A stretch of 39,561 nucleotides of DNA from Magnetococcales bacterium (GTDB lineage Bacteria > Pseudomonadota > Magnetococcia > Magnetococcales > JADFZT01): NCBI GenBank assembly GCA_015232395.1, contig JADFZT010000044.1, forward strand, positions 1 through 39,561. Direction: 5' to 3'. Of this stretch, positions 16,997 to 38,703 are shown piece after piece (positions within the stretch are counted from its first letter, which is position 1; every line of letters begins with the position of its first letter). The position numbers were made by a program, and so were the translations under genes. Under the pieces are notes generated by a model, which was not told where the DNA came from, did no database searches, and saw only the letters and a list, made by a program, of their open reading frames with translations.

Positions 16997-18013
16997 TCAA
17001 TTCAACTGATCCGCTCCACACTGACCAGGGGAGGCGGCCACCTCCAGCTTCAGGGTTTTGGAGCGGGTATTGCCACTGGCGTCCGTCACATGAAAGGTGA
17101 TGGGATAGGGGGCATTTTGGCCACTGTTACAATCCATTCGACCCCTCACCAAAGCATAGGGAGCCAGGGTCTTGTCTGCATCGCTGCCACAGTTGGCTGA
17201 GACCGATAGATGGAGGTGATCGGGGAGGGAGCCCGTGTAACACCAGGCATATTTATCCGACTCAAAAGGCACCCCGCCTTCGGCATAAATATGGGCCACA
17301 GGATAGGCTTTCCCTTCCTCGCCAGCGGGAAGCCGGGTGTTTAAAATTTGCAGGGGGGCTGAGGCCTGGCTGTTGGCGCAATCGATGCGGGCCTGCAACT
17401 CCGGCAAGGTAACCCATTGAACGATATCGTCGTAAGGTTCCAACCGGACTGAAGCTCCCCCCGGGTCATCGTGGCCACGATAATGGTCTGCGAGTTCGCC
17501 TTTGGGGGAGAGGGTGACGGTGGTGGGGGTGGAGACCGCCCCTCCCCAGTGACTGTCAGCGCTGCTGTTGGCTGTTTGAATATTATAGTTGTTGCCACCG
17601 CTCAAAATAATGAAGGCGACATCACGGATGCTCCGGGTACCGGTGATAGCGAGAGAGGTGGAGGTTCGAGAACAGATGGAGATCTCATCCGAAGTGGCGG
17701 CTTGGCTATCGTAGAGATAAAGAAGCGCTTGATCCCAGCTATCCTTGTGGTTGGGAAGTGTGGCCAAAAACGCCTCTCCCGCTCCGGGCAAATGGCCGTT
17801 GGCTTCCCCATAACCCACCACCGCATCCACTGCAGCCTCGACCGCTTCTCTCCCCTGCTTGGCTTTGACTATCACCACCTGGCCTTTGCTCACCAGGGTA
17901 CCCAGACTCGCCAGGATGGAACCCACCACCACCAGGGCCACGATCACCCAGAGAAAGCCAAATCCGGAAGCGCGACTCGGTGGAAAATCTTTTCCTGGTT
18001 CGAAAGGATTCAT
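16997..18013 (-). CDS. Non-canonical prepilin-like protein with C-terminal He_PIG-like Ig domain
   Basis: This 338-residue protein has a class III-like signal: RASG then FGFLWVIVALVVVGSILAS. Cleavage after the Gly at 17 would leave Trp, not Glu, at position 5, as in GspK/PilX-type tip pseudopilins. The middle contains YDDIVQWVTLPELQARIDC, shared with the next upstream prepilin. From about 222 it resembles a putative-Ig (He_PIG) domain: LNTRLPAGEEGKAYPV at the start and PITFHVTDASGNTRSKTLKL near the end, with paired cysteines. GGAGGTG lies upstream of ATG 18013. It is the last gene of the pilus operon; a tip or adhesive minor pilin is likely by inference. Confidence 0.8.
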   Translation of the reverse strand: MNPFEPGKDFPPSRASGFGFLWVIVALVVVGSILASLGTLVSKGQVVIVKAKQGREAVEAAVDAVVGYGEANGHLPGAGEAFLATLPNHKDSWDQALLYLYDSQAATSDEISICSRTSTSLAITGTRSIRDVAFIILSGGNNYNIQTANSSADSHWGGAVSTPTTVTLSPKGELADHYRGHDDPGGASVRLEPYDDIVQWVTLPELQARIDCANSQASAPLQILNTRLPAGEEGKAYPVAHIYAEGGVPFESDKYAWCYTGSLPDHLHLSVSANCGSDADKTLAPYALVRGRMDCNSGQNAPYPITFHVTDASGNTRSKTLKLEVAASPGQCGADQLN

Positions 18014-18195
18014 CGTTCACCTCCACCCCTGCCAGTCGTGAGCCATTCGCCTTTGCGGTCTATACGATGATTGAATCATCCCTCCCACTTTGATTCTAAA
18101 CCATTTCAACGAAAGATGGGGGCCAGATATCATTTCCCCTCGAAAGATATGATCTTGACTTGGCACTCCATCTGGAAAAATAACCGGGAAAGGCG

Positions 18196-19329
18196 TTAAG
18201 GATCTACTGTAATTACGAAACTTTTGACCACAATACGGTCCCCGCCATTGACCCCAGTGGTGGTACCGGGATCCCCTTCGTCCCGCAAAAATATCCGGTA
18301 AAGATAGGTGCCGGATCGTGCCGTGATGGCGCTGCCGTTGTCATCCAGGTAGAGATGGCTGGGATTGCCAGCATCACTCCGGCCCCAATCTTCCTCAGCC
18401 ACCTCCCCACAATCCCCAGAGGGTGCCAATGGTTGAGTGAGGGCAGCATCCAGATAGAGATCAACCCCGCCCAGGATACCGGTCACCTCATAACACCAGC
18501 GATATTGACCGGTGGTGGCGACGATCCCCCCATCTCCCAGCAGCGTAGCGCGATAGGGGCTCGATACCTTTCCGGCGGGAAGCGAAGTATTGACGATCTT
18601 CAGAGGGGTGCCCATTCCCCCCGCGCCACAACCAATTTTTTGTTTCAACTCCCCCAGGGTCACCCAGCGCACGATATCATCAAAGGGCAATCCCCCCTCC
18701 ACCAACCGGGTATCACCCGGCCTGGGAACGGTGATTTGAGGGGGAGAAAAATCAGCGACATCACCACCATCGGCCCTGGTGATGAGATCGATGGTGGTGG
18801 TGACATCAGGGTCAGAGAGGCGGGTGCTGCCTACGGAACGCAGCTGCTGTGTGGCATCGGCTCCAACACTCCAGATCATAAAGGCGATCTCTGTGACCGT
18901 GGTGGTGGTGGAGCAGGCATCATCATCACACAAGGCCACCTCAAACCCGGTGCTGGTGCCATTTTCATCACACAGGGAGTGGGTCGATGTGAGAATGGAA
19001 TTGTCCACCACATAGAGAAGAGGGCGGTTGAAGGGATCATCGGCCCGGGGCACGATGGCATCAAACCCGGTGGTCCCAGTGCCGACGACATCAGGCAAGC
19101 GTTCATTCTCAGCGGCATACCCCACCACCCCCAGGAGAGCAGCCGCCACCACCTGCTCCGCCTCAGCGGTTTTGGCTTTGATCACAGCCGGGCCGATCCT
19201 GCTCAACCCCAGAGAGACCAGGATACCAATCACCAGCATCACCACAGAAAGCTCAATCAGGGAAAACCCCCTGTGCGGGTTCTCTCTGTGGCTCCTTTTG
19301 TACGGTGTGTCACGCTGCCGACGGTTCAT
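18196..19329 (-). CDS. Prepilin with C-terminal He_PIG-like Ig domain
   Basis: A type IV prepilin-like protein of about 377 residues. The leader ends PHRG and is followed by FSLIELSVVMLVIGILVSLG (Glu5 present), so PilD-type cleavage and N-methylation are expected. FDDIVRWVTLGELKQKIGC is shared with the following gene. The C-terminal third begins IVNTSLPAGKVSSPYRATL and ends with VKSFVITVDP, resembling a He_PIG Ig-like module. I chose ATG 19329 (GGAG 9 bases upstream) over a TTG at 19362 with no clear site. It is much larger than a major pilin, so probably a minor or adhesive subunit. The 182-bp gap to the next gene holds no clear regulatory signal. Confidence 0.85.
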   Translation of the reverse strand: MNRRQRDTPYKRSHRENPHRGFSLIELSVVMLVIGILVSLGLSRIGPAVIKAKTAEAEQVVAAALLGVVGYAAENERLPDVVGTGTTGFDAIVPRADDPFNRPLLYVVDNSILTSTHSLCDENGTSTGFEVALCDDDACSTTTTVTEIAFMIWSVGADATQQLRSVGSTRLSDPDVTTTIDLITRADGGDVADFSPPQITVPRPGDTRLVEGGLPFDDIVRWVTLGELKQKIGCGAGGMGTPLKIVNTSLPAGKVSSPYRATLLGDGGIVATTGQYRWCYEVTGILGGVDLYLDAALTQPLAPSGDCGEVAEEDWGRSDAGNPSHLYLDDNGSAITARSGTYLYRIFLRDEGDPGTTTGVNGGDRIVVKSFVITVDP

Positions 19330-19391
19330 GATCCCAAGCTCCAGCCACCCCATTGTTTTCAACCTGGAAAGAGATAAAAAAGCGTCCCACC

Positions 19392-20624
19392 CTAAAACAG
19401 ATCACCGATCATGTTGTAGATGGGCAAAAACATGGAGGCAGCCAGAAGCGCAAAAAAACCGCCCCCCAAAAGAATCGATACCGGTTCGATCAATTTTCCC
19501 AAGGAATCGACAGCATTGTTCAGACGACGCTTGTATTCGTCGGCAATATATTTCAGCTGATTTTCAAGGTGACCGCTCTGCTCACCCACCCCGATCATAT
19601 GGACCACAAAAGAAGGAAATACCCCCGTCTGACCAAAGCTTTCCTTCAAGGTCAATCCCCGGGTGATGCTGTTGCGGATTTCACCGATCTTTTCCCGATA
19701 GAGTTCATTGGGCACGATGTCGAACATGATCTCCAGCGCCCGCATCATGTCGAGACCGGCCCGGCTCATCAGGCTGATATATTCCGAGATGAAAGCCAAA
19801 GAGGAGAGCTGCACCAGGGGGCCGACAATGGGCAGATGATAGATCAGTTTATGAAACTGATAGCGCACCCGCCGATTGGCCTTGATCAACATGGAAAGCC
19901 CCAGAGGGATCACAAAGAGCGCCACCAGGATGGGGATGAGATTGTGCTCCAGAAAAGTAGCCGCCGCAATCACCCCCTGGGTCAGTGGAGGCAGCGCCAC
20001 ATTAAAGCTTTTAAATAGCGCCCGCATTTGGGGCACCACCATATAGAGCCAAAAAATCATCGCCCCCAGAATCGCCGCCAGGGTGAAAGCGGGCATCACC
20101 AAAGCCCGTTTGGTCTCCCCGATGATGGCGTCCATCCGCTTGAGATGTTCGGCGGCATCCCCCACGGTCTTCTCCAGACGCCCGGTCTCCTCACCAATGC
20201 GCATCAGGTGGGTGACCAGCTCCGGAAAAGCATCCCGATTCAATGCGGCGGACTCTGCCAGGGTCAGGCCATTTTCCACATCTCCCAAAACCGCCTGCCC
20301 TGCATGGGAGAGCGCCTTGTTTTCGCTCACCACCATGGATTCATGCACCACCGCTCGCAGAGACATTCCCGCCTCAAGCATCACCGACATGTTGCCCAAC
20401 CCTTCGGCCAGCTCCAGACGCCCCACCGACCCCCGAATCAGCCGCTGCCCAAAGCTGAACAGCCCCCCGAGCAGGGCTGGAACCGGTTCCGAGTAGATCA
20501 CCGTGGCTCCAGAGCGCTCCAGGGTATCCATGGTGGCCAGTTGGTCATCATGGGAAAATTTTTTGATGCCGCCGACAATACGCCCTTGGGCAGTCAGCAC
20601 CTTGTATCGAAAATAGGTCGCCAC
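19392..20624 (-). CDS. GspF/PilC-family inner-membrane platform protein
   Basis: This 410-residue protein anchors the pilus machine in the inner membrane and contacts the assembly ATPase. Two GspF domains are visible: about 70-190 (GNMSVMLEAGMSLRAVV, LMRIGEETGRLEKTV) and 275-400 (YISLMSRAGLDMMRALEIM, MIGVGEQSGHLENQL). Membrane helices are near 178-200, 220-245 and 375-400. The start is GTG at 20624, only 2 bp after the ATPase stop, with a weak ribosome-binding site, suggesting translational coupling. Closest in size and order to MshG of MSHA-type pili, but the subtype is inference. Confidence 0.92.
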   Translation of the reverse strand: MATYFRYKVLTAQGRIVGGIKKFSHDDQLATMDTLERSGATVIYSEPVPALLGGLFSFGQRLIRGSVGRLELAEGLGNMSVMLEAGMSLRAVVHESMVVSENKALSHAGQAVLGDVENGLTLAESAALNRDAFPELVTHLMRIGEETGRLEKTVGDAAEHLKRMDAIIGETKRALVMPAFTLAAILGAMIFWLYMVVPQMRALFKSFNVALPPLTQGVIAAATFLEHNLIPILVALFVIPLGLSMLIKANRRVRYQFHKLIYHLPIVGPLVQLSSLAFISEYISLMSRAGLDMMRALEIMFDIVPNELYREKIGEIRNSITRGLTLKESFGQTGVFPSFVVHMIGVGEQSGHLENQLKYIADEYKRRLNNAVDSLGKLIEPVSILLGGGFFALLAASMFLPIYNMIGDLF

Positions 20625-20626
20625 GA

Positions 20627-22378
20627 TCAGGAACGCTCTTGAGTCGTGGGGGAGTGACTGCTGGCCTGTAAGGAAGTGCTTTGACTCTCCCTGGCAGCGC
20701 TCTGGCCGGAGACGCTGGTACCCGCATAGGAGGCCCCCAACACCCGCCGCACTTCGCTCAAGGTGGTTTCACCGCATTTGACCTTTTTGACGGCGCACTC
20801 GAAAAGATTGAAAAATCCCTTTTTGCGCGCCATGGATTCAATCACATCCAGAGGTTCATCCCGATAGATACAGTTGGTCAACGCCTGATCCGGGATAAAC
20901 AGCTCATAGATCACCGTCCGCCCAAAAAAGCCGCTCTGGCCGCAAACCTTGCAGCCTTTTCCCCGATAGAGCTTGTCGATGGTGTGATCCTTCAGATAGG
21001 CCAGATCCTCCGGTGTGGGGGGATAGCTTTCCCGGCAGACGCTACAGTTGCGCCGCACCAGACGCTGGCAAAGAATGGCCACCAGGGAGTCGGCCAGCAT
21101 GAAGGGAGGAACATCCAGGGAACGCAGGCGGGGCAGGGCACCCAGAGCGGTGTTGGTGTGCAGGGTGGAGAGCACCAGATGGCCTGTTTCCGAGGCGGAC
21201 ATGGCCACCTCCGCCGTCAGTTTGTCCCGCACCTCACCCACCATGATGATATCGGGATCGTGGCGCAAAAAATAACGGACGGCATTGGCAAAGTCGTAGC
21301 CCGCCTTGGCATTGACCTGGGTTTGGCGCACCAGGGGCAGGCGAAATTCAATGGGATCTTCCACGGTGATGACGTTGCTGTCGGTCAGATCCAGGGAGCG
21401 CAGTACCGAAAAAAGGGTGGTGGTCTTGCCGGAACCGGTGGGACCGGTCACCAATACCAATCCAAAGGGTTCCTGAAAGATGGAACGGACAGCTTGGAGA
21501 TCTTCCTCAAACAGCCCCAACTGGCTGATCCCCAGCACGCTGGTCTGGTTGGGCAGCACCCGCAGCACCATGTTTTCCCCATGAATGCAAACCGTGGTCG
21601 ATACCCGAAAATCGACCCGGTTGTTCATGATCATTTCGGTAAAGCTGCCATCCTGGGGAAGCCTTTTTTCGGCAATGTTCATTTCGGCCTTCATCTTCAA
21701 GGTCGAAATGATCCGACGAAAGCTGGGATGGACCGAAAACATCGACCGCACCACCCCATCCACCCGAAAGGCGATGTTGATGGAACGCTCCAGAGGCCGA
21801 ACATGAATGTCCGAAGCCCGCTCCTTGATGGCCAGCTGAAAGAGATATTCGATAAATTTATCCACCGACCGGGTGCCTGCTACATCGGTGGAGAGAATCC
21901 GGATCTCCTGTTGCAGGAGTTGATCAACCGGATTTTCCAGAAAAAAATAGTAGTGACGCACCATGTTATGGATTTTGTCACTCTCCCCCTGGTTAAAAAT
22001 GGGCCTGAGCCCGGTATTGCGGGTGATGAGGGTTTCCAGTTGATCCACTTCGTCGCTGGAAGTGACTATTTCCACTTCCTTCGAGGTGTGGTTCATGGGC
22101 AAAAAATGGTTGGACAGGCAGAGGTTTTCGTTAAAAAGCCGCAGTGTGGCCTCTTCGGGCACCACCTGATCGACATCGATGAAGGTGCGCCCCTCCTGCT
22201 GGGCGATGGTGGTGCCCACATCAAATTCGCTGACAAACCCCAAACGTTGCAGCGCTTCACCCAGTCGTTCGGAGGTGACCTGCTGCTCCTGGAGGCTGAT
22301 CTGGATGTGCCCCTCGTTGATAAGATTTTTTTCTCGCAGCAACTCCCCGATGGGTTTGCGCTTTTTTTCCTGGGACAT
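20627..22378 (-). CDS. GspE/PilB/MshE-type pilus assembly ATPase
   Basis: A cytosolic hexameric ATPase driving pilin polymerisation, 583 residues. Residues 8-63 carry an MshEN-like motif: KPIGELLREKNLI... then RLGEALQRLGFVSEFDV...QQEG, the fold that binds c-di-GMP in MshE. The catalytic part shows Walker A TGPTGSGKTT (321-330), Asp box, Walker B DPDIIMVGEVRD (374-385) and His box TGHLVLSTLHTN (398-409). A zinc site (CSVC and CKVC, about 430-475) follows. GGAGG lies 6 bases before ATG 22378; an upstream ATG at 22399 is less likely. The C-terminal 30 residues are Ser/Thr/Gln-rich and probably disordered. The gene is 2 bp from gspF. Confidence 0.94.
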   Translation of the reverse strand: MSQEKKRKPIGELLREKNLINEGHIQISLQEQQVTSERLGEALQRLGFVSEFDVGTTIAQQEGRTFIDVDQVVPEEATLRLFNENLCLSNHFLPMNHTSKEVEIVTSSDEVDQLETLITRNTGLRPIFNQGESDKIHNMVRHYYFFLENPVDQLLQQEIRILSTDVAGTRSVDKFIEYLFQLAIKERASDIHVRPLERSINIAFRVDGVVRSMFSVHPSFRRIISTLKMKAEMNIAEKRLPQDGSFTEMIMNNRVDFRVSTTVCIHGENMVLRVLPNQTSVLGISQLGLFEEDLQAVRSIFQEPFGLVLVTGPTGSGKTTTLFSVLRSLDLTDSNVITVEDPIEFRLPLVRQTQVNAKAGYDFANAVRYFLRHDPDIIMVGEVRDKLTAEVAMSASETGHLVLSTLHTNTALGALPRLRSLDVPPFMLADSLVAILCQRLVRRNCSVCRESYPPTPEDLAYLKDHTIDKLYRGKGCKVCGQSGFFGRTVIYELFIPDQALTNCIYRDEPLDVIESMARKKGFFNLFECAVKKVKCGETTLSEVRRVLGASYAGTSVSGQSAARESQSTSLQASSHSPTTQERS

Positions 22379-22498
22379 CTGCTGCCTCCAAATGACCAAT
22401 CATCCCCCAAAGGTCGGTGGGGTACCTGGTGATAGCGCTTTTCCCTTTGCAGCGATCAGAAAGCACTTTCCTGAAACGGACAGGGTGTGGCCAATTTT

Positions 22499-22867
22499 TT
22501 AATGTTCCATCCCGGATGATGGTTGGAAGGCTTTTGAATCCGGTGAGGGGATCTCTGGCATTTCACCTGAGTCAGCCTCTAATCCTTGATCTGGAAAAAG
22601 AGCCAGCGCCTGCCAGCCAATCTGATCTCCAGCCCAACCATTGAGCCCGCTTTCCGGACTCCCAAACGCCGCCAACTGAGGTTGCAAGCGGGCGATATCA
22701 GAAAGATGGCGTGGGAAAATTTTAGGAATTCGCGGCACCTCCAACCCTTCCAGGGGAGGAGGATAAACCACCCCCGGGCCGGTGAGATGGGGGGTGGCCA
22801 GATAGAGTGACCCCAGCAAGCCCACCGCCACCACCAGCAAGCCGATACCGCTTACATATCGGATCAT
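22499..22867 (-). CDS. Small membrane-anchored periplasmic protein of the pilus operon
   Basis: I do not recognise the family. The 122-residue protein has one N-terminal helix (about 5-24) and a proline-rich periplasmic tail with no cysteine. Its start overlaps the PilM/N-like gene by 4 bp and it lies directly upstream of the ATPase. This matches the position and size of PilP/MshK-like accessory proteins that connect the alignment complex to the secretin, but the sequence alone does not prove this. Confidence 0.75.
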   Translation of the reverse strand: MIRYVSGIGLLVVAVGLLGSLYLATPHLTGPGVVYPPPLEGLEVPRIPKIFPRHLSDIARLQPQLAAFGSPESGLNGWAGDQIGWQALALFPDQGLEADSGEMPEIPSPDSKAFQPSSGMEH

Positions 22868-24300
22868 TTGTTATCCCCAGCCCTCAGTTTCATCGAAAAC
22901 ACCACCTGCTCCAGAGATCCCTCAAAATGGCCATCCAGCAACTGATAACCCCGCTTTTCCAACTCGGCCATATACGCCTGATGAGCCGCCGTAGCCGCTT
23001 CGAAAGGAGCCTCGAAGCGACCATTCAGAGTCACGGTGAGCCCGCCTTTGGTGCCATATTCATATTGTAGATTGACCCGATCAAGGTGCAACGGAGCACT
23101 CTGGATGTTGGTCAGATCAGCCAGCACCTGGGCAAATTGTCTTTTTTGTTGCAGATCAAGCAGCGTTTTGCCAAAGCGGATCTGATCCCCCAGCCCGGTG
23201 GCGGAAAATCCCTTTGGTGCGGTGGGCATCTCCTGACGGATTTGCTGGATGAGATCTTCGGCGATCTGTTCCTGACGGTCTGTTTCATGTTGGCTTGAAA
23301 TAGTCAGCATGAACACCATTCCCGCAGCAACGGCTGTAATAATAGTGGCCAGGGGCAGCAGGCGATGGGCCCGATAGAGGAGTTTATCCAGCAAGGGGTT
23401 GAGGGCGTCGGCCACTTTCAGGGAGCGGAGCTGATCCGGAAGGGAGGTGACGAGACGCCCACCATCAGCCAACCCATAGATGCTCACCGGTGGCAGGGTG
23501 ACGGGCCGTTGCAGGCGTTGCTCCAGATCATCCAACCAAGCGGGAAAAAGCGGCCACTGACGGGAGGAGAGATTCTTCCCACCAACCAGGGCAGGGGGTT
23601 CGGTGCTGGCGGGGGATGTGGCTTGATTGGCGGCCTCTGATTGTGGCAACCCGGGATCCTTTTTCTCCCCTGCCTCCACTCCCCAAAGCAGACCTACGAC
23701 CTGGCTTATTTTGAGATTGTGCTCCCCCTCAATGGAACGCAACTCATTGGCCAGGGAGTCGGCCAGCCCGGCCATGGCGGATCGATCCTGGGAATAGACC
23801 GTCAGCCGTCGGGCCGTCCACAGCCGATGGCCCTCGCCAACCAGCAGCTCCAAAAATCGACCATGGAGGAGAAATACAGCGACACAGCCCTGGCCATAAC
23901 CACGCTGGGTAGCCAGCAGCAAGCCATTCATGGGGAATAGCAACGGCTGATCCGCCTGATCGGCCAGGCGGGTGAAATAGCCCTGAAAGGTTTTGGAATC
24001 AACAGCGGAAAAATAGAGGCGGGAGGAGTCAGCCCCGGTATTTTGGCACCAGTGGGGCAAGACCTTTGGCGGGGCTGTAAAGTGACCGTTTTCCCGCAAC
24101 TGGCGCTGGACGATGGCTACAGCATATTTGGCGGGGGTGGCGACATCCTGCACCCGGGGTTCCGCCCCTCCCAGGTCGCTGACGATCCAGTGATCCCCCT
24201 TGGGCCAGTTTACCGGATCAACAACCGTCGCCTGATCTCCCTCGATGAGGTAGGCCTTGCCATCCAGCTCGATAACCTGTTTTTTGGCAGGCTTCTTCAT
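22864..24300 (-). CDS. PilM-PilN-like fusion (GspL-like alignment-complex protein)
   Basis: A 478-residue inner-membrane protein. The N-terminal 200 residues are cytoplasmic and contain a degenerate actin-like arrangement (ISQVVGLLWG, VSIYGLADGGR), as in GspL/MshI. One transmembrane helix lies near 315-340 (LLPLATIITAVAAGMVFMLT). It is followed by a periplasmic coiled coil and a ferredoxin-like PilN/GspL-type domain ending with a beta strand-rich part (LTVTLNGRFEAPFEAA). Both flanking genes overlap by 4 bp. In separate-gene systems PilM and PilN perform these roles; here they appear as one chain. The assignment rests on architecture and operon position. Confidence 0.75.
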   Translation of the reverse strand: MKKPAKKQVIELDGKAYLIEGDQATVVDPVNWPKGDHWIVSDLGGAEPRVQDVATPAKYAVAIVQRQLRENGHFTAPPKVLPHWCQNTGADSSRLYFSAVDSKTFQGYFTRLADQADQPLLFPMNGLLLATQRGYGQGCVAVFLLHGRFLELLVGEGHRLWTARRLTVYSQDRSAMAGLADSLANELRSIEGEHNLKISQVVGLLWGVEAGEKKDPGLPQSEAANQATSPASTEPPALVGGKNLSSRQWPLFPAWLDDLEQRLQRPVTLPPVSIYGLADGGRLVTSLPDQLRSLKVADALNPLLDKLLYRAHRLLPLATIITAVAAGMVFMLTISSQHETDRQEQIAEDLIQQIRQEMPTAPKGFSATGLGDQIRFGKTLLDLQQKRQFAQVLADLTNIQSAPLHLDRVNLQYEYGTKGGLTVTLNGRFEAPFEAATAAHQAYMAELEKRGYQLLDGHFEGSLEQVVFSMKLRAGDNK

Positions 24301-24782
24301 GGCTGTTTCCGAACGAAAAAGGCACCCTTGAAAGAGAGTGTCACCTCTGCCGACGGTGTGTTGGCCGGGGTGCTTTTGGGATTGGCCGGGCTTTGAAAAT
24401 CTCCACCTGTCAGGGTGAGGGATTGGGGTTGGAAATAATAATTTTCGTGGTTGTCGAAGGCTTTCAGGTAAGCCATCAGTTGAGGGCCATCCACAGAGCC
24501 TTCAACCAGGCTGGTTTCATAGCGGATCCATTGGTCTTCCTTCAGATGCTGTTTTTCCGCCTCTGTCTGGAACGCCTCGACCTGCTTGAGCTGTTTCTGA
24601 AAGGCCGCACCCTCCCGAGCTGCCATTTGCACCTCCATCAGGCGTCGATTCAGCTGAGAAATTCTCTCCGTCGCCTCCAAACCCTGCTCTCGTGCTTCCA
24701 GATAGCGCTGGGTGGACCACACAAGCAGTCCCGAGACCGTCAAGGCTGCCAACAACCAGAAAAGACGGGCAATATGGGTCAT
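24297..24782 (-). CDS. PilO/MshJ-like inner-membrane protein
   Basis: A 161-residue bitopic protein with TM helix at 6-26, coiled coil (30-85), and a C-terminal alpha/beta domain (90-160; VDGPQLMAYLKAFDNHE), the architecture of PilO, GspM and MshJ. I chose ATG 24782 (GGGAG about 10 bases upstream). A TTG start at 24869 would overlap the preceding prepilin and add 29 residues unlike a leader. It overlaps the next gene by 4 bp. It likely pairs with the periplasmic domain of the PilM/N fusion. Confidence 0.75.
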   Translation of the reverse strand: MTHIARLFWLLAALTVSGLLVWSTQRYLEAREQGLEATERISQLNRRLMEVQMAAREGAAFQKQLKQVEAFQTEAEKQHLKEDQWIRYETSLVEGSVDGPQLMAYLKAFDNHENYYFQPQSLTLTGGDFQSPANPKSTPANTPSAEVTLSFKGAFFVRKQP

Positions 24783-24849
24783 CGTTAAACTACTCCCGAA
24801 AAATGGCTCCTCCACAAGGGCAGGGGCCACCAAAAAAACTGGTAATGAT

Positions 24850-25725
24850 TCAGGGCAAAGGCCGGTCAAAGTAGTAAACCAAGCCGTGGATCGTCGGGTT
24901 GTTGGTCCAGCTGGCCGCCCCGCTAGCCTGTAAAATTTCCCCTACATAGGTGCGATGGGTAAGGGTCAAGGAGGCCGCCTGGGGGGTTGGGCCGGAGATG
25001 GCCCGTACCCGCCCCACGCCCGCCCCGTCCGCCCCATCCAAAGCGGTATCGATCTGGGCAAGGTAACTCAGATAGGTATCATCGGAAATGGCTGAAGTGG
25101 CCCGGCCTGAGGTGTGTCTTTGGTTGGTGACGATGATCACGTTATAGCTGTTGCCCCAAGTGCCATCCACATCCACCCCCATGGAGAGAAACAGCGGATT
25201 GGAGCCCACCACCAGATGGGTCGCGTCGGTTCTGTCCCCTGGCAGGGTGGTAAAGCCACGGGCAACACGGATATCACTTTTTTTACTGGGATCCACATCA
25301 CAATCAAAAACGGCTGTTGTGGGACGATCCACACAGTAAAACAGCCCCGGAGTGCCTGCCAGAGATGGGTCGTCGATGAGACGATCGGGTGGGGGGGCGG
25401 CTGGGGGGTTGGGTGAGGAGGCAGATGGTATGCCCGGGGAGGTGGAATCCCCGGCGAAACGACCGTAGCGCCTGAAGTGCTCCCACTGAATTTCAGCCCA
25501 GGTGTTGATAAAATCAGCCCCCTTCCTACCCTCGGCGGAAGAGAGAACATCCCGGCCACTCATCACCGCAGAGAGGATCAAGCCGATGATCACCATCACC
25601 ACGGAGAGTTCGAGGATGGAAAAGCCCGCCTGGAGAGAGGGCACCCTGGAATCGTCAACGCAAGAGGGCTCTCCGGCGTTGTCCACAGCAGCAAATTCCC
25701 TCACCTCATCCACATCGAGCCACAT
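24850..25725 (-). CDS. Type IV prepilin-like protein
   Basis: A 291-residue prepilin with an unusually long acidic leader (34 residues) ending SLQAG, then FSILELSVVMVIIGLILSAV with Glu5. The globular part is homologous to the upstream prepilin: both continue with MxGxDVL after the helix, share GRVRAI(S/T)G and end near VYYFD. A Pro/Ser/Ala-rich insert (about 103-115) is present here only. The start ATG 25725 has only a G-rich stretch in front. Second gene of the operon, 25 bp after the first. Could be a major or minor subunit. Confidence 0.87.
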   Translation of the reverse strand: MWLDVDEVREFAAVDNAGEPSCVDDSRVPSLQAGFSILELSVVMVIIGLILSAVMSGRDVLSSAEGRKGADFINTWAEIQWEHFRRYGRFAGDSTSPGIPSASSPNPPAAPPPDRLIDDPSLAGTPGLFYCVDRPTTAVFDCDVDPSKKSDIRVARGFTTLPGDRTDATHLVVGSNPLFLSMGVDVDGTWGNSYNVIIVTNQRHTSGRATSAISDDTYLSYLAQIDTALDGADGAGVGRVRAISGPTPQAASLTLTHRTYVGEILQASGAASWTNNPTIHGLVYYFDRPLP

Positions 25726-25750: not shown

Positions 25751-26677
25751 TCATCGGTTTAATCCAGCCTCCCCACCGTGACGGTGGTCAAAATAGTAGA
25801 CGACCCCCACCTGGTTGGAAGTGGGGCGGATGTCGTAGCCTGATTCGTTGACGCCATCCACTCCCCGGGCCTTGGCATGAGCCGCCTGTCCCCCCAGTTC
25901 GGTGACTTCGTCGATGCAGCTTTTGGCTTCGTTGGCGGTAAAAGCACCGGCGGAAGAGCCCTTGCGGCCGATCTGATCCTGCATGGCGATGGAGATGCCC
26001 GGCTCATAGTGGGCAGCCAGATCCACACTGCAAGCAGTCGCCGCCACCCCGGTGATGGCACGGACGCGACCGGCATAGGCGTTGGCTCTGCCATCGAAGG
26101 CTTTGTCCAAGGCTTCGATATAGGGAATGGCATCGGCGGAGAGGGCTTTGTCGCAGTTGATGGAGCCGCAGACGACGATGACGTTTCGGTCTGGATCACC
26201 CAACTCGGCGGCGTCGGCGGTGGAGGCGGTTTTGGTGTCATCCGCACCAGAGCCGCTGTCGTTGCCGACTTTGATGAAAAACACCTGCCCCTCTACCGTC
26301 ATCTGGTCCTCCATCTCACCGGCGATAAACATTTTAATCAAAAAAACCGCTGAGTTGGATTGATCAGCCATTTCATCGGCAATCACACCGTTGGTGGTAT
26401 CCTTAAAATAGAGCAGGACCGGGGTGACGTCGCTGACTTCGGCAAAACTGCCATCGCCGGGAAAATAGCCCTTTTGCGTACGAAACTGCATGAGAGCGTC
26501 TTCCCAGGATCGGGTCCAGTGGACAAAATTTTTGATTTTGGAGCTGCCAAGCACATCCTTGCCCGCCATGACGGCTGACAGGATCATGCCGATGATCACC
26601 AGGACCACCGCCATTTCGATCATGGTAAAGCCGCCTTGACCATTTTTGATGCTGCGTTTGTGCCATCTGCTCAGCAT
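25751..26677 (-). CDS. Type IV prepilin-like protein, first gene of pilus operon
   Basis: A 308-residue prepilin. The leader MLSRWHKRSIKNGQGG is followed by FTMIEMAVVLVIIGMILSAV with Glu5, a canonical prepilin peptidase site. The frame extends to 26947, but AGGAG 8 bases before ATG 26677 and the normal 16-residue leader define this start. The globular part has several cysteines (VVCGSINC, about 180-187) and ends near VYYFD, as in the next gene. First position and best leader suggest it may be the major pilin, although it is longer than typical major pilins. Transcription probably starts about 235 bases upstream. Confidence 0.88.
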   Translation of the reverse strand: MLSRWHKRSIKNGQGGFTMIEMAVVLVIIGMILSAVMAGKDVLGSSKIKNFVHWTRSWEDALMQFRTQKGYFPGDGSFAEVSDVTPVLLYFKDTTNGVIADEMADQSNSAVFLIKMFIAGEMEDQMTVEGQVFFIKVGNDSGSGADDTKTASTADAAELGDPDRNVIVVCGSINCDKALSADAIPYIEALDKAFDGRANAYAGRVRAITGVAATACSVDLAAHYEPGISIAMQDQIGRKGSSAGAFTANEAKSCIDEVTELGGQAAHAKARGVDGVNESGYDIRPTSNQVGVVYYFDHRHGGEAGLNR

Positions 26678-26918
26678 GATCTTTTCTCCTGGATACGATA
26701 GGCCTTCCAGGAATGGCTTGGTGCGGCCCCTCCCGGGTGATTTTGATAATGGCTCCCCCCAACGCTCCGGCATGGATCGACCCGAGTCAGGCTGTTTGGT
26801 GGAGACAAGGGATGGAGAGTGGGGAAAGGGCGCATGATTTTTCCTCAAAAGCTGGACTATTTTTTCGGTGCAGCCCAGCCGTGGCAGAAAAAATGGATTG
26901 GAAAACAAATAACCTTTG

Positions 26919-26947
26919 ATTCTATGCGGGCATTCTCCCCAGGTCAA
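26919..26947 (-). promoter_or_regulatory. Sigma70-type promoter for the pilus operon
   Basis: On the minus strand TTGACC (26942-26947) and TAGAAT (26919-26924) are spaced by exactly 17 bases. The predicted transcript starts near 26912, leaving a long leader of about 235 bases before the first prepilin, which could allow post-transcriptional control. Confidence 0.65.
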
Positions 26948-27245: not shown

Positions 27246-27386
27246 TTATCAAAAAAAGACTGTATGGATTCCTGGGAATAAAGCCACCCAATTTATTGAA
27301 TACCGTCCGTACCAGAGATAGGGTTCCATCCCTGATCAAGGGAAAGCACCATTCTGGAGCGTTTGCCGGTATTCACGACTGAAAAA

Positions 27387-34010
<6,624 letters not shown>

Positions 34011-34011
34011 G

Positions 34012-36422
<2,411 letters not shown>

Positions 36423-36426
<4 letters not shown>

Positions 36427-37541: not shown

Positions 37542-37605
37542 GTTAAGCCATCGTTTTTAACAAAACGACATCCGCTCTAGCGGCCAAGTTGTGGGAGGAA
37601 GCGTC

Positions 37606-38703
37606 ATGGAAAACAGCCAAGGGTGTGTTTTGGTGGTTGATGATGAACGACTCAACATCAACCTGCTCGTGGATCTGCTCGGGAAAAGCCACACGATGTT
37701 GGTGGCCAAAACCGGGGAGCAGGCGCTCAAGCGGGCCATGGGGAATCCTACGCCGGATTTGATTTTGCTCGATATCATGATGCCCGGGATGGATGGTTTT
37801 GAGGTGTTGCGGCGGCTGAAGGCAGCAGAAAAAACCCGGGAGATACCGGTGATTTTTGTCACCGCGATGGGGGAGGTGGATGATGAAACCCGGGGGTTTG
37901 AGTTGGGAGCGGTGGATTATATCACCAAGCCCTTTTCCCCTCCGGTGGTGAAGGCCCGGGTAAGAACGCATCTATCGTTACAACAGGCCCATCAGCAGCT
38001 GGCGGATCATAATCATCGTTTGGAGGAGATGGTGGTGGCGCGCACCCGGGAGCTGGCTTTGACCCAGGATGTGACCATGCACAGCTTGGCTTCGTTGGCG
38101 GAGACCCGGGACAACGAAACCGGCAACCACATCCGCCGCACCCAGCATTATGTGCGTTTGCTGGCGGAACGGTTGCAGGATCATCCCCAATATCGGGATT
38201 TTCTCACCGACAAAACCATCGATATGATCTTCAAGTCCGCCCCGCTCCACGATATGGGCAAGGTAGGGGTGCCGGATAAAATTTTGCTGAAGCCGGGCAA
38301 GCTGGATGACGATGAATTCACCATCATGAAGGGTCACACCACCTTGGGGCGGGATGCCATCGACACCGCTGAGGGATCTCTGGGGGTGGGGGATTCGTTC
38401 CTGCGTTTTATCCGGGAGATCGCCTATACCCACCACGAAAAATGGAACGGCAGCGGCTATCCGGAAGGGCTCAAGGAGGAACAAATCCCGGTGTCAGGCC
38501 GCCTGATGGCCATCGCCGATGTCTATGACGCCCTCATCAGCAAACGGGTCTACAAACCCGCCTTCCCCCACGAAAAAGCGGTCGCCATCATCGCGGAGGG
38601 CAAAGGCAGCCACTTCGACCCGGTAATGGTGGATCTCTTCCTGGACATCGCCGAGCTGTTCAGAGAAGTCGCGCAAAAATATGCCGACCATCCGGAGCGG
38701 TGA
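37606..38703 (+). CDS. Response regulator with HD-GYP domain (c-di-GMP phosphodiesterase, RpfG-like)
   Basis: A 365-residue protein. Receiver at 7-125 with Asp56 in LILLDIMMPGMDG and Lys108 in YITKPF; this domain is strikingly similar to that of the preceding gene. A coiled coil (128-150) leads to HD-GYP (155-360) with HDMGK (His215-Asp216), GHTTLGRDAI, HHEKWNGSGYPEGL (GYP at 284-286) and ADVYDAL. All hallmark residues are present, so active c-di-GMP hydrolysis is expected. I chose ATG 37606 (GGAGG about 8 bases upstream) over a GTG at 37591. The 64-bp gap to the previous gene shows no terminator. Its most evident neighbourhood target is the MshE-type pilus ATPase. Confidence 0.95.
   Translation: MENSQGCVLVVDDERLNINLLVDLLGKSHTMLVAKTGEQALKRAMGNPTPDLILLDIMMPGMDGFEVLRRLKAAEKTREIPVIFVTAMGEVDDETRGFELGAVDYITKPFSPPVVKARVRTHLSLQQAHQQLADHNHRLEEMVVARTRELALTQDVTMHSLASLAETRDNETGNHIRRTQHYVRLLAERLQDHPQYRDFLTDKTIDMIFKSAPLHDMGKVGVPDKILLKPGKLDDDEFTIMKGHTTLGRDAIDTAEGSLGVGDSFLRFIREIAYTHHEKWNGSGYPEGLKEEQIPVSGRLMAIADVYDALISKRVYKPAFPHEKAVAIIAEGKGSHFDPVMVDLFLDIAELFREVAQKYADHPER

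Follow-up and report, generated by a model that had tools for sequence, protein, structure and literature searches.

In type 4 filaments, Glu5 of a pilin forms a salt bridge with the N-terminal amine of the overlying subunit, and the subunit that caps a tip complex lacks Glu5 (PMC10191384, PMC9934059). In the HIJK tip complex this cap is GspK/PilK, whose extra part is an alpha-domain inserted in the pilin sheet. The PilA-PilB-PilC tip complex of S. sanguinis likewise has one Glu5-less subunit, the non-modular PilA, together with modular adhesins that keep Glu5, among them PilC with its Ig-like plus ConA-like lectin modules (PMC9934059). Modular pilins, in which a pilin helix and domain are followed by a grafted binding-type module, were surveyed by Raynaud et al. 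2021 (PMC8179133) using the N-terminal motif IPR012902; architectures with PF05345 (He_PIG) and PF13385 are included, the former among the 15 commonest. On that account the pilin-Ig fusion itself is not unusual, contrary to what the initial annotation of the locus described here had supposed.

Here we analyse a 39,561-nucleotide stretch of Magnetococcales DNA (the window), in which a type IV pilus operon ends with two prepilin genes, A and B. Both proteins are built like modular pilins. The pair resembles the S. sanguinis complex in having modular subunits and one subunit without Glu5, but here it is the Glu5-less B that carries a module, and A and B are paralogues over their whole length. B shares with GspK/PilK the lack of Glu5 and membership of a minor-pilin set, whereas the part that it has in addition is a beta-sandwich at the C-terminus. 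Fusions of pilin and He_PIG have been described before, as have caps without Glu5; the novelty here lies in a variant that joins the two in one subunit of apparently recurrent origin. We found no description in the open-licence literature of a module-bearing Glu5-less subunit with a Glu5-bearing paralogue across phyla, nor, in the available part of Raynaud et al. 2021 (PMC8179133), of the Glu5-bearing paralogue pairing. We think it probable that A and B are tip minor pilins, with B a self-capping display subunit lacking Glu5 and the Glu5-bearing A beneath it.

A type IV pilus operon with a terminal prepilin pair

The operon occupies the minus strand of the window in the order prepilin 1, prepilin 2, three inner-membrane-type genes, extension ATPase, platform protein, prepilin A and prepilin B (Table 1). 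A pilin related to prepilin 1, of the GFTLIE...GKDLI type, is found near the A/B pair in Geobacteraceae and Nitrospirota loci. The Pfam scan gave no family match for the small protein in the MshK-like position, and the PilM/N- or MshI-like protein, which also has no Pfam match, has homologues in loci L045-L054 at 22-29% identity.

Table 1. Genes and modules of the pilus operon, in operon order
Feature	Position	Strand	Evidence
Prepilin 1, Glu5 present, candidate major pilin	25751..26947	-	N_methyl 27.4 bits
Prepilin 2, Glu5 present	24850..25725	-	N_methyl 21.4 bits, barely above cut-off
PilO/MshJ-like small membrane protein	24297..24869	-	Position; homologues in L047, L052; name by analogy
PilM/N- or MshI-like inner-membrane protein, conserved in Magnetococcales T4P loci	22864..24300	-	Name by analogy
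Small protein with one N-terminal hydrophobic stretch, MshK-like gene position	22499..22867	-	Position and sequence
GspE/PilB-type extension ATPase with MshEN c-di-GMP domain	20627..22399	-	T2SSE 383.6 bits
GspF/PilC-type platform protein	19392..20624	-	T2SSF 133 bits
Prepilin A: Glu5, pilin domain, C-terminal He_PIG-like module	18196..19362	-	N_methyl 24.3 bits
Ig module of A	18199..18609	-	hhalign; Foldseek Ig-type matches on whole model, low-confidence model
Prepilin B: Gly-1 kept, Trp5, pilin domain, C-terminal He_PIG-like module	16997..18013	-	Sequence and AlphaFold model
Ig module of B	17021..17362	-	Sub-threshold He_PIG 16.6 bits, hhalign, Foldseek

The extension ATPase matches both MshEN (27.7 bits, cut-off 23.1) and the MshE-related c-di-GMP motif NF053729 (44.0 bits, cut-off 38). 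Together with the T4aP-like platform protein and the inner-membrane genes, this recalls MSHA-type T4aP; the window differs in that no MSHA-specific pilin family was matched and no secretin gene lies within it. The genome has nine secretin genes (contigs C58, C3, C64, C9, C22, C10, C82, C45 and C72) and one detected A24 prepilin peptidase (contig C36), and a single peptidase probably serves several type 4 filament systems. GspK and PilY1 homologues are found elsewhere in the genome, the T2SSK matches on other contigs.

The plus strand beyond the operon encodes a 2215-aa hybrid sensor kinase (27363-34010) with five SBP_bac_3 solute-binding stretches, GAF, HisKA, two receiver domains and Hpt. After it come a further hybrid kinase with SBP_bac_3 (34012-36426), a SpoIIE-phosphatase regulator and a receiver-HD_5 protein. 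The last of these (37591-38703, plus strand), possibly a c-di-GMP phosphodiesterase judging from HD_5, lies about 15 kb from the pilus ATPase with its c-di-GMP-type MshEN region.

Prepilins A and B are paralogues that differ at position 5

The frame of A in Table 1 is the longest one, opening with TTG, and the likely start is the ATG at 19329; B begins at an ATG preceded by GGAGG. The two genes are separated by 182 bases, and in most relatives they overlap or nearly touch. Both products have a short leader to Gly-1 and after it a hydrophobic helix some 20 residues long, as in class III signals, and the hydrophobicity of residues 1-22 of B equals that of A. The mature N-terminus of A, HRG/FSLIELSVVMLVIG (the slash marks the predicted cleavage site), carries the Glu5 of type IV pilins (RG/FSLIELS) and matches N_methyl above the cut-off of 21.2 bits. 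That of B, ASG/FGFLWVIVALVVVG, has Trp5 instead (SG/FGFLWVIV), and the Pfam scan found no N_methyl match in B.

A and B are 32% identical over 278 aa (E 3e-27), a stretch running through the pilin part into the beginning of the module, so that their similarity is beyond chance and their sequences mark them as paralogous prepilins. They have in common a middle motif (FDDIVRWVTLGEL / YDDIVQWVTLPEL) and a module-opening motif (KIVNTSLPAG / QILNTRLPAG). The initial annotation had read this part of the locus correctly: two prepilin frames, each with an N-terminal pilin helix, only one of them without Glu5, sharing a middle motif and an L/V-N-T-x-LPAG opening.

The aligned A proteins have an invariant Glu5 and four conserved Cys. 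In all of them the module contains a WC motif and a second Cys, and two further Cys lie in the pilin part, a pattern that suggests two disulphides.

The C-terminal modules are He_PIG-like

Assigning the modules to He_PIG (PF05345) by Pfam alone was abandoned in favour of profile comparison, since window B stays below the cut-off of 24 (13.7 bits for the whole protein, 16.6 bits and E 0.011 for the module alone) and window A has no Pfam match to this family. The homologous module exceeds the cut-off in relatives (A of L065, 30.9; B of L069, 36.2; B of L077, 26.4; B of L066, 31.4). Aligned by hhalign with a He_PIG-positive profile, the window modules gave 99.3% (A) and 99.1% (B); as the comparison set was partly drawn from homologous positions in relatives, this result is a bridge to those relatives and no independent witness.

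The initial annotation had called for structure prediction of both C-terminal parts. AlphaFold predicts for B (mean pLDDT 75) a long helix (16-72) and a pilin sheet, with a beta-sandwich (236-323) standing apart from them, and Foldseek with the whole model returned matches to SraP cadherin-like (CDHL), SrpA/Hsa, Rib, PKD, dystroglycan and cadherin domains. For A the model is weaker (pLDDT 65); its Foldseek matches, again with the whole model, are first a bacterial lipoprotein and then mainly antibody-type Ig domains. An Ig/cadherin-like beta-sandwich is thus seen in B, the low-confidence model of A being supportive only. Taken together, the profile comparison, the relatives above the cut-off and the models support He_PIG-type Ig/cadherin-like modules at both C-termini, as first proposed, and in each protein a pilin is fused to a domain that is not peculiar to pili. 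Since A too carries the module, Ig and the loss of Glu5 are not coupled one to one.

The E-F-A-B cassette recurs in Magnetococcales, and similar pilin pairs occur in other phyla

Extension ATPase, platform protein, A and B (E-F-A-B) form a conserved cassette. This order recurs in most of the Magnetococcales loci that were fetched, with A and B alone on a few short contigs, and B adjoins A in 14/14 syntenic loci. A was matched in 27/48 genomes of the class. The genome itself has a second E-F-A-B cassette on contig C94 (L013:9155-13850), in which B has 200 aa and G5 and ends at the pilin domain without an Ig module; from its sequence, it appears to be a natural display-less version of B.

A search of the genome contigs with the window A sequence alone gave no match, and one with an alignment gave 79 loci. 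Full-length relatives of A were found in Nitrospirota, Geobacteraceae, Campylobacterota and one Zodletone Deltaproteobacteria genome. The pairing of a Glu5 pilin with a Glu5-less one, as in A and B, also occurs in Geobacteraceae, Nitrospirota and the Zodletone "Deltaproteobacteria" genome. In a phylum draw of 398 genomes, full-length matches were confined to Magnetococcales, with N-terminal pilin matches elsewhere. One Nitrospirota locus (L068:5605-11378, Nitrospirae bacterium DP16D_bin.35) has three consecutive pilins: an A with Glu5, a W5 pilin in which a He_PIG-like part is joined by Kelch repeats, and a pilin with Glu5 that bears a legume-lectin domain.

In the tree, the window pair grouped with Nitrospirota, Geobacteraceae and Campylobacterota pilins (99/93), and the window E and F have their nearest counterparts in Magnetococcales (57-60% vs 37-41%). 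A horizontal origin of the window pair was considered and set aside, as grouping with the Magnetococcales cassettes stays acceptable when forced (p-AU 0.24).

The Glu5-less partners in Geobacteraceae (L065, L067, L069 and L077) start with RG/(V/I/M)ALL(Y/N)L... and have GspK/PilX-like N-termini. Such N-termini (RG/VALLYLII) would suit a reading in which the pair tops a substrate-secreting, T2SS-like pseudopilus and B takes the role of GspK; K-type subunits also lack Glu5 (PMC9934059), and GspE/GspF models give good scores for the window E and F. Several observations speak against it. T2SSK (PF03934) has no match in window B or in any scanned B protein of other phyla, these four Geobacteraceae proteins included, and on this ground B was rejected as a GspK. 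The GspK-type proteins of the genome sit on other contigs, the window is without a secretin gene, the MshEN domain and c-di-GMP motif are typical of MSHA-type T4P, and lectin-type modules on B would misfit a periplasmic pseudopilus. We therefore regard a secretion pseudopilus as improbable and prefer a pilus tip. The earlier suggestion that the Glu5-less protein caps the fibre like GspK keeps its capping half, since the protein is always second of the pair and always has Gly-1 and no Glu5 (see below); the likeness to GspK extends to the missing Glu5 only and finds no counterpart in the T2SSK search.

Glu5 is absent from the second pilin across scattered lineages

In the Magnetococcales pairs that gene order defines, the first pilin carries Glu5 in 14/14 cases and the second in 0/14. 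Over all 59 rows, some of them kin and hence not independent, Glu5 is present in 35/35 A and 0/24 B, counts in which the A rows from the genome-contig scan are biased by a search pattern containing Glu, and three B rows (L057, L059 and L062) were named by the absence of Glu5 rather than by gene order. Position 5 of the 24 B rows is occupied by nine residues (G, W, Y, A, T, S, Q, N or I), and Gly-1 is kept in 24/24. N_methyl matched 16/16 aligned A vs 1/17 aligned B; as window B and nearly all its Glu5-less relatives have no such match, they were probably missed by the IPR012902-based census of Raynaud et al. 2021.

The variability of position 5, and the four B proteins that have no module, would fit relaxed constraint, with B a decaying duplicate or never assembled. 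Yet B keeps its Gly-1, its hydrophobic helix, its pilin cysteines and its downstream module across phyla, no B has reverted to Glu, and B persists beside A in all of the syntenic Magnetococcales loci. Decay is in our judgement highly improbable, and we keep to B as an assembled tip subunit.

On a tree of the pilin part built without column 5, the Glu5-less rows are scattered; 8 changes are counted, and strongly supported branches force no fewer than 6 of them. A topology that unites all B rows in a single clade is rejected (delta lnL 114, p-AU 0.0008), and a tree without the N-terminal 50 columns again has 8 changes, at least 3 of them forced. Rejection of a single B clade leaves either repeated duplication with loss of Glu5, or gene conversion between A and B with selection holding position 5 apart. 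Under both histories, the pilus machine would appear to need one Glu5 and one Glu5-less subunit.

A scan of 17 loci that was blind to position 5 found Glu5-less pilins confined to this cassette type or to loci with a Laminin_G member, and none in the other Magnetococcales T4P clusters of the scan. The notion of a Glu5-less pilin in every cluster is contradicted by this result, and the rule applies within this cassette family only.

Additional modules are carried by B

Among the aligned Magnetococcales proteins, Lcl_C is found on 5/17 and Laminin_G_3 on 2/17 B, so that 7/17 B but 0/16 A have an extra module of these types (Fisher p 0.007). Lcl_C and Laminin_G_3 also occur on two held-out B-type proteins, L157 and L167, and B of other phyla have He_PIG repeats, legume-lectin-like stretches (sub-cut-off) or Kelch repeats. 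The presence of the extra modules on B rather than on A fits display at the tip. Lectins are not limited to B everywhere, as the third pilin of L068, which keeps Glu5, carries a legume lectin above the Pfam cut-off. In four loci (L013, L044, L045 and L052), B has no module beyond the pilin part, suggesting that capping is constant and the displayed module variable.

These architectures also bear on what the Ig module does. B might be a Glu5-less cap or initiator in which Ig is structural, as a stalk or steric shield, or a duplication artefact from A, with adhesion left to other modules or proteins. In several B the Ig module is flanked by the pilin part on one side and by Lcl_C or lectin modules on the other, the Ig-like module of S. 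sanguinis PilC has no known function while its ConA-like module binds glycans (PMC9934059), and He_PIG is listed without clear function in PMC8179133. However, Ig is the sole module in the window and Geobacteraceae pairs, and it lies near the adhesin domains of SraP, SrpA/Hsa and Rib in fold space, a fold too common to serve as proof of binding. We consider a purely structural or artefactual Ig module rather unlikely, and hypothesise that the module of the capping subunit B may bind a ligand or mediate adhesion.

A proposed model of the pilus tip

In the arrangement that we favour, A and B would belong to a type IVa-like, probably c-di-GMP-gated pilus, and both would be cut after Gly-1 by the sole prepilin peptidase detected in the genome. 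B would be the first and topmost subunit of the fibre. Without Glu5, it could not neutralise the N-terminal amine of an overlying subunit, so no subunit could be added above it, and a bulky C-terminal module would be tolerated at the tip. A would lie below, in contact with B and supplying its Glu5 to the amine of B; paired in this way, the two would expose two Ig/cadherin-like modules at the tip, and the fibre would then extend from below with ordinary pilins. The Ig domain of B may act as a binder, of glycans, proteins or surfaces, or as a stalk. The position of B in relatives would be swappable, holding Lcl_C, Laminin_G/ConA-like, legume-lectin-like or Kelch modules, or none. Labour may be divided otherwise than in this scheme, given that the S. 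sanguinis subunit without Glu5, PilA, has no module, and that PilB and PilC, which do have modules, retain Glu5.

Seen more broadly, a duplicated modular minor pilin may have lost Glu5 repeatedly in several phyla, uniting cap and binding module in one protein, with the Glu5 sister as its socket and a swappable display site; we hold the chances of this wider reading to be evenly balanced. If it is true, loss of Glu5 would be a recurrent, readable mark of a tip minor pilin, the identity of the residue that replaces it would be unimportant, and a class of tip adhesins would have been overlooked by GFxxxE-based searches. Dozens of natural pairs differing at position 5 would then offer a direct test of the rule that only a Glu5-less subunit caps a type 4 filament. 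It would also suggest how environmental bacteria such as Magnetococcales, Geobacteraceae and Nitrospirota show binding domains at the pilus tip.
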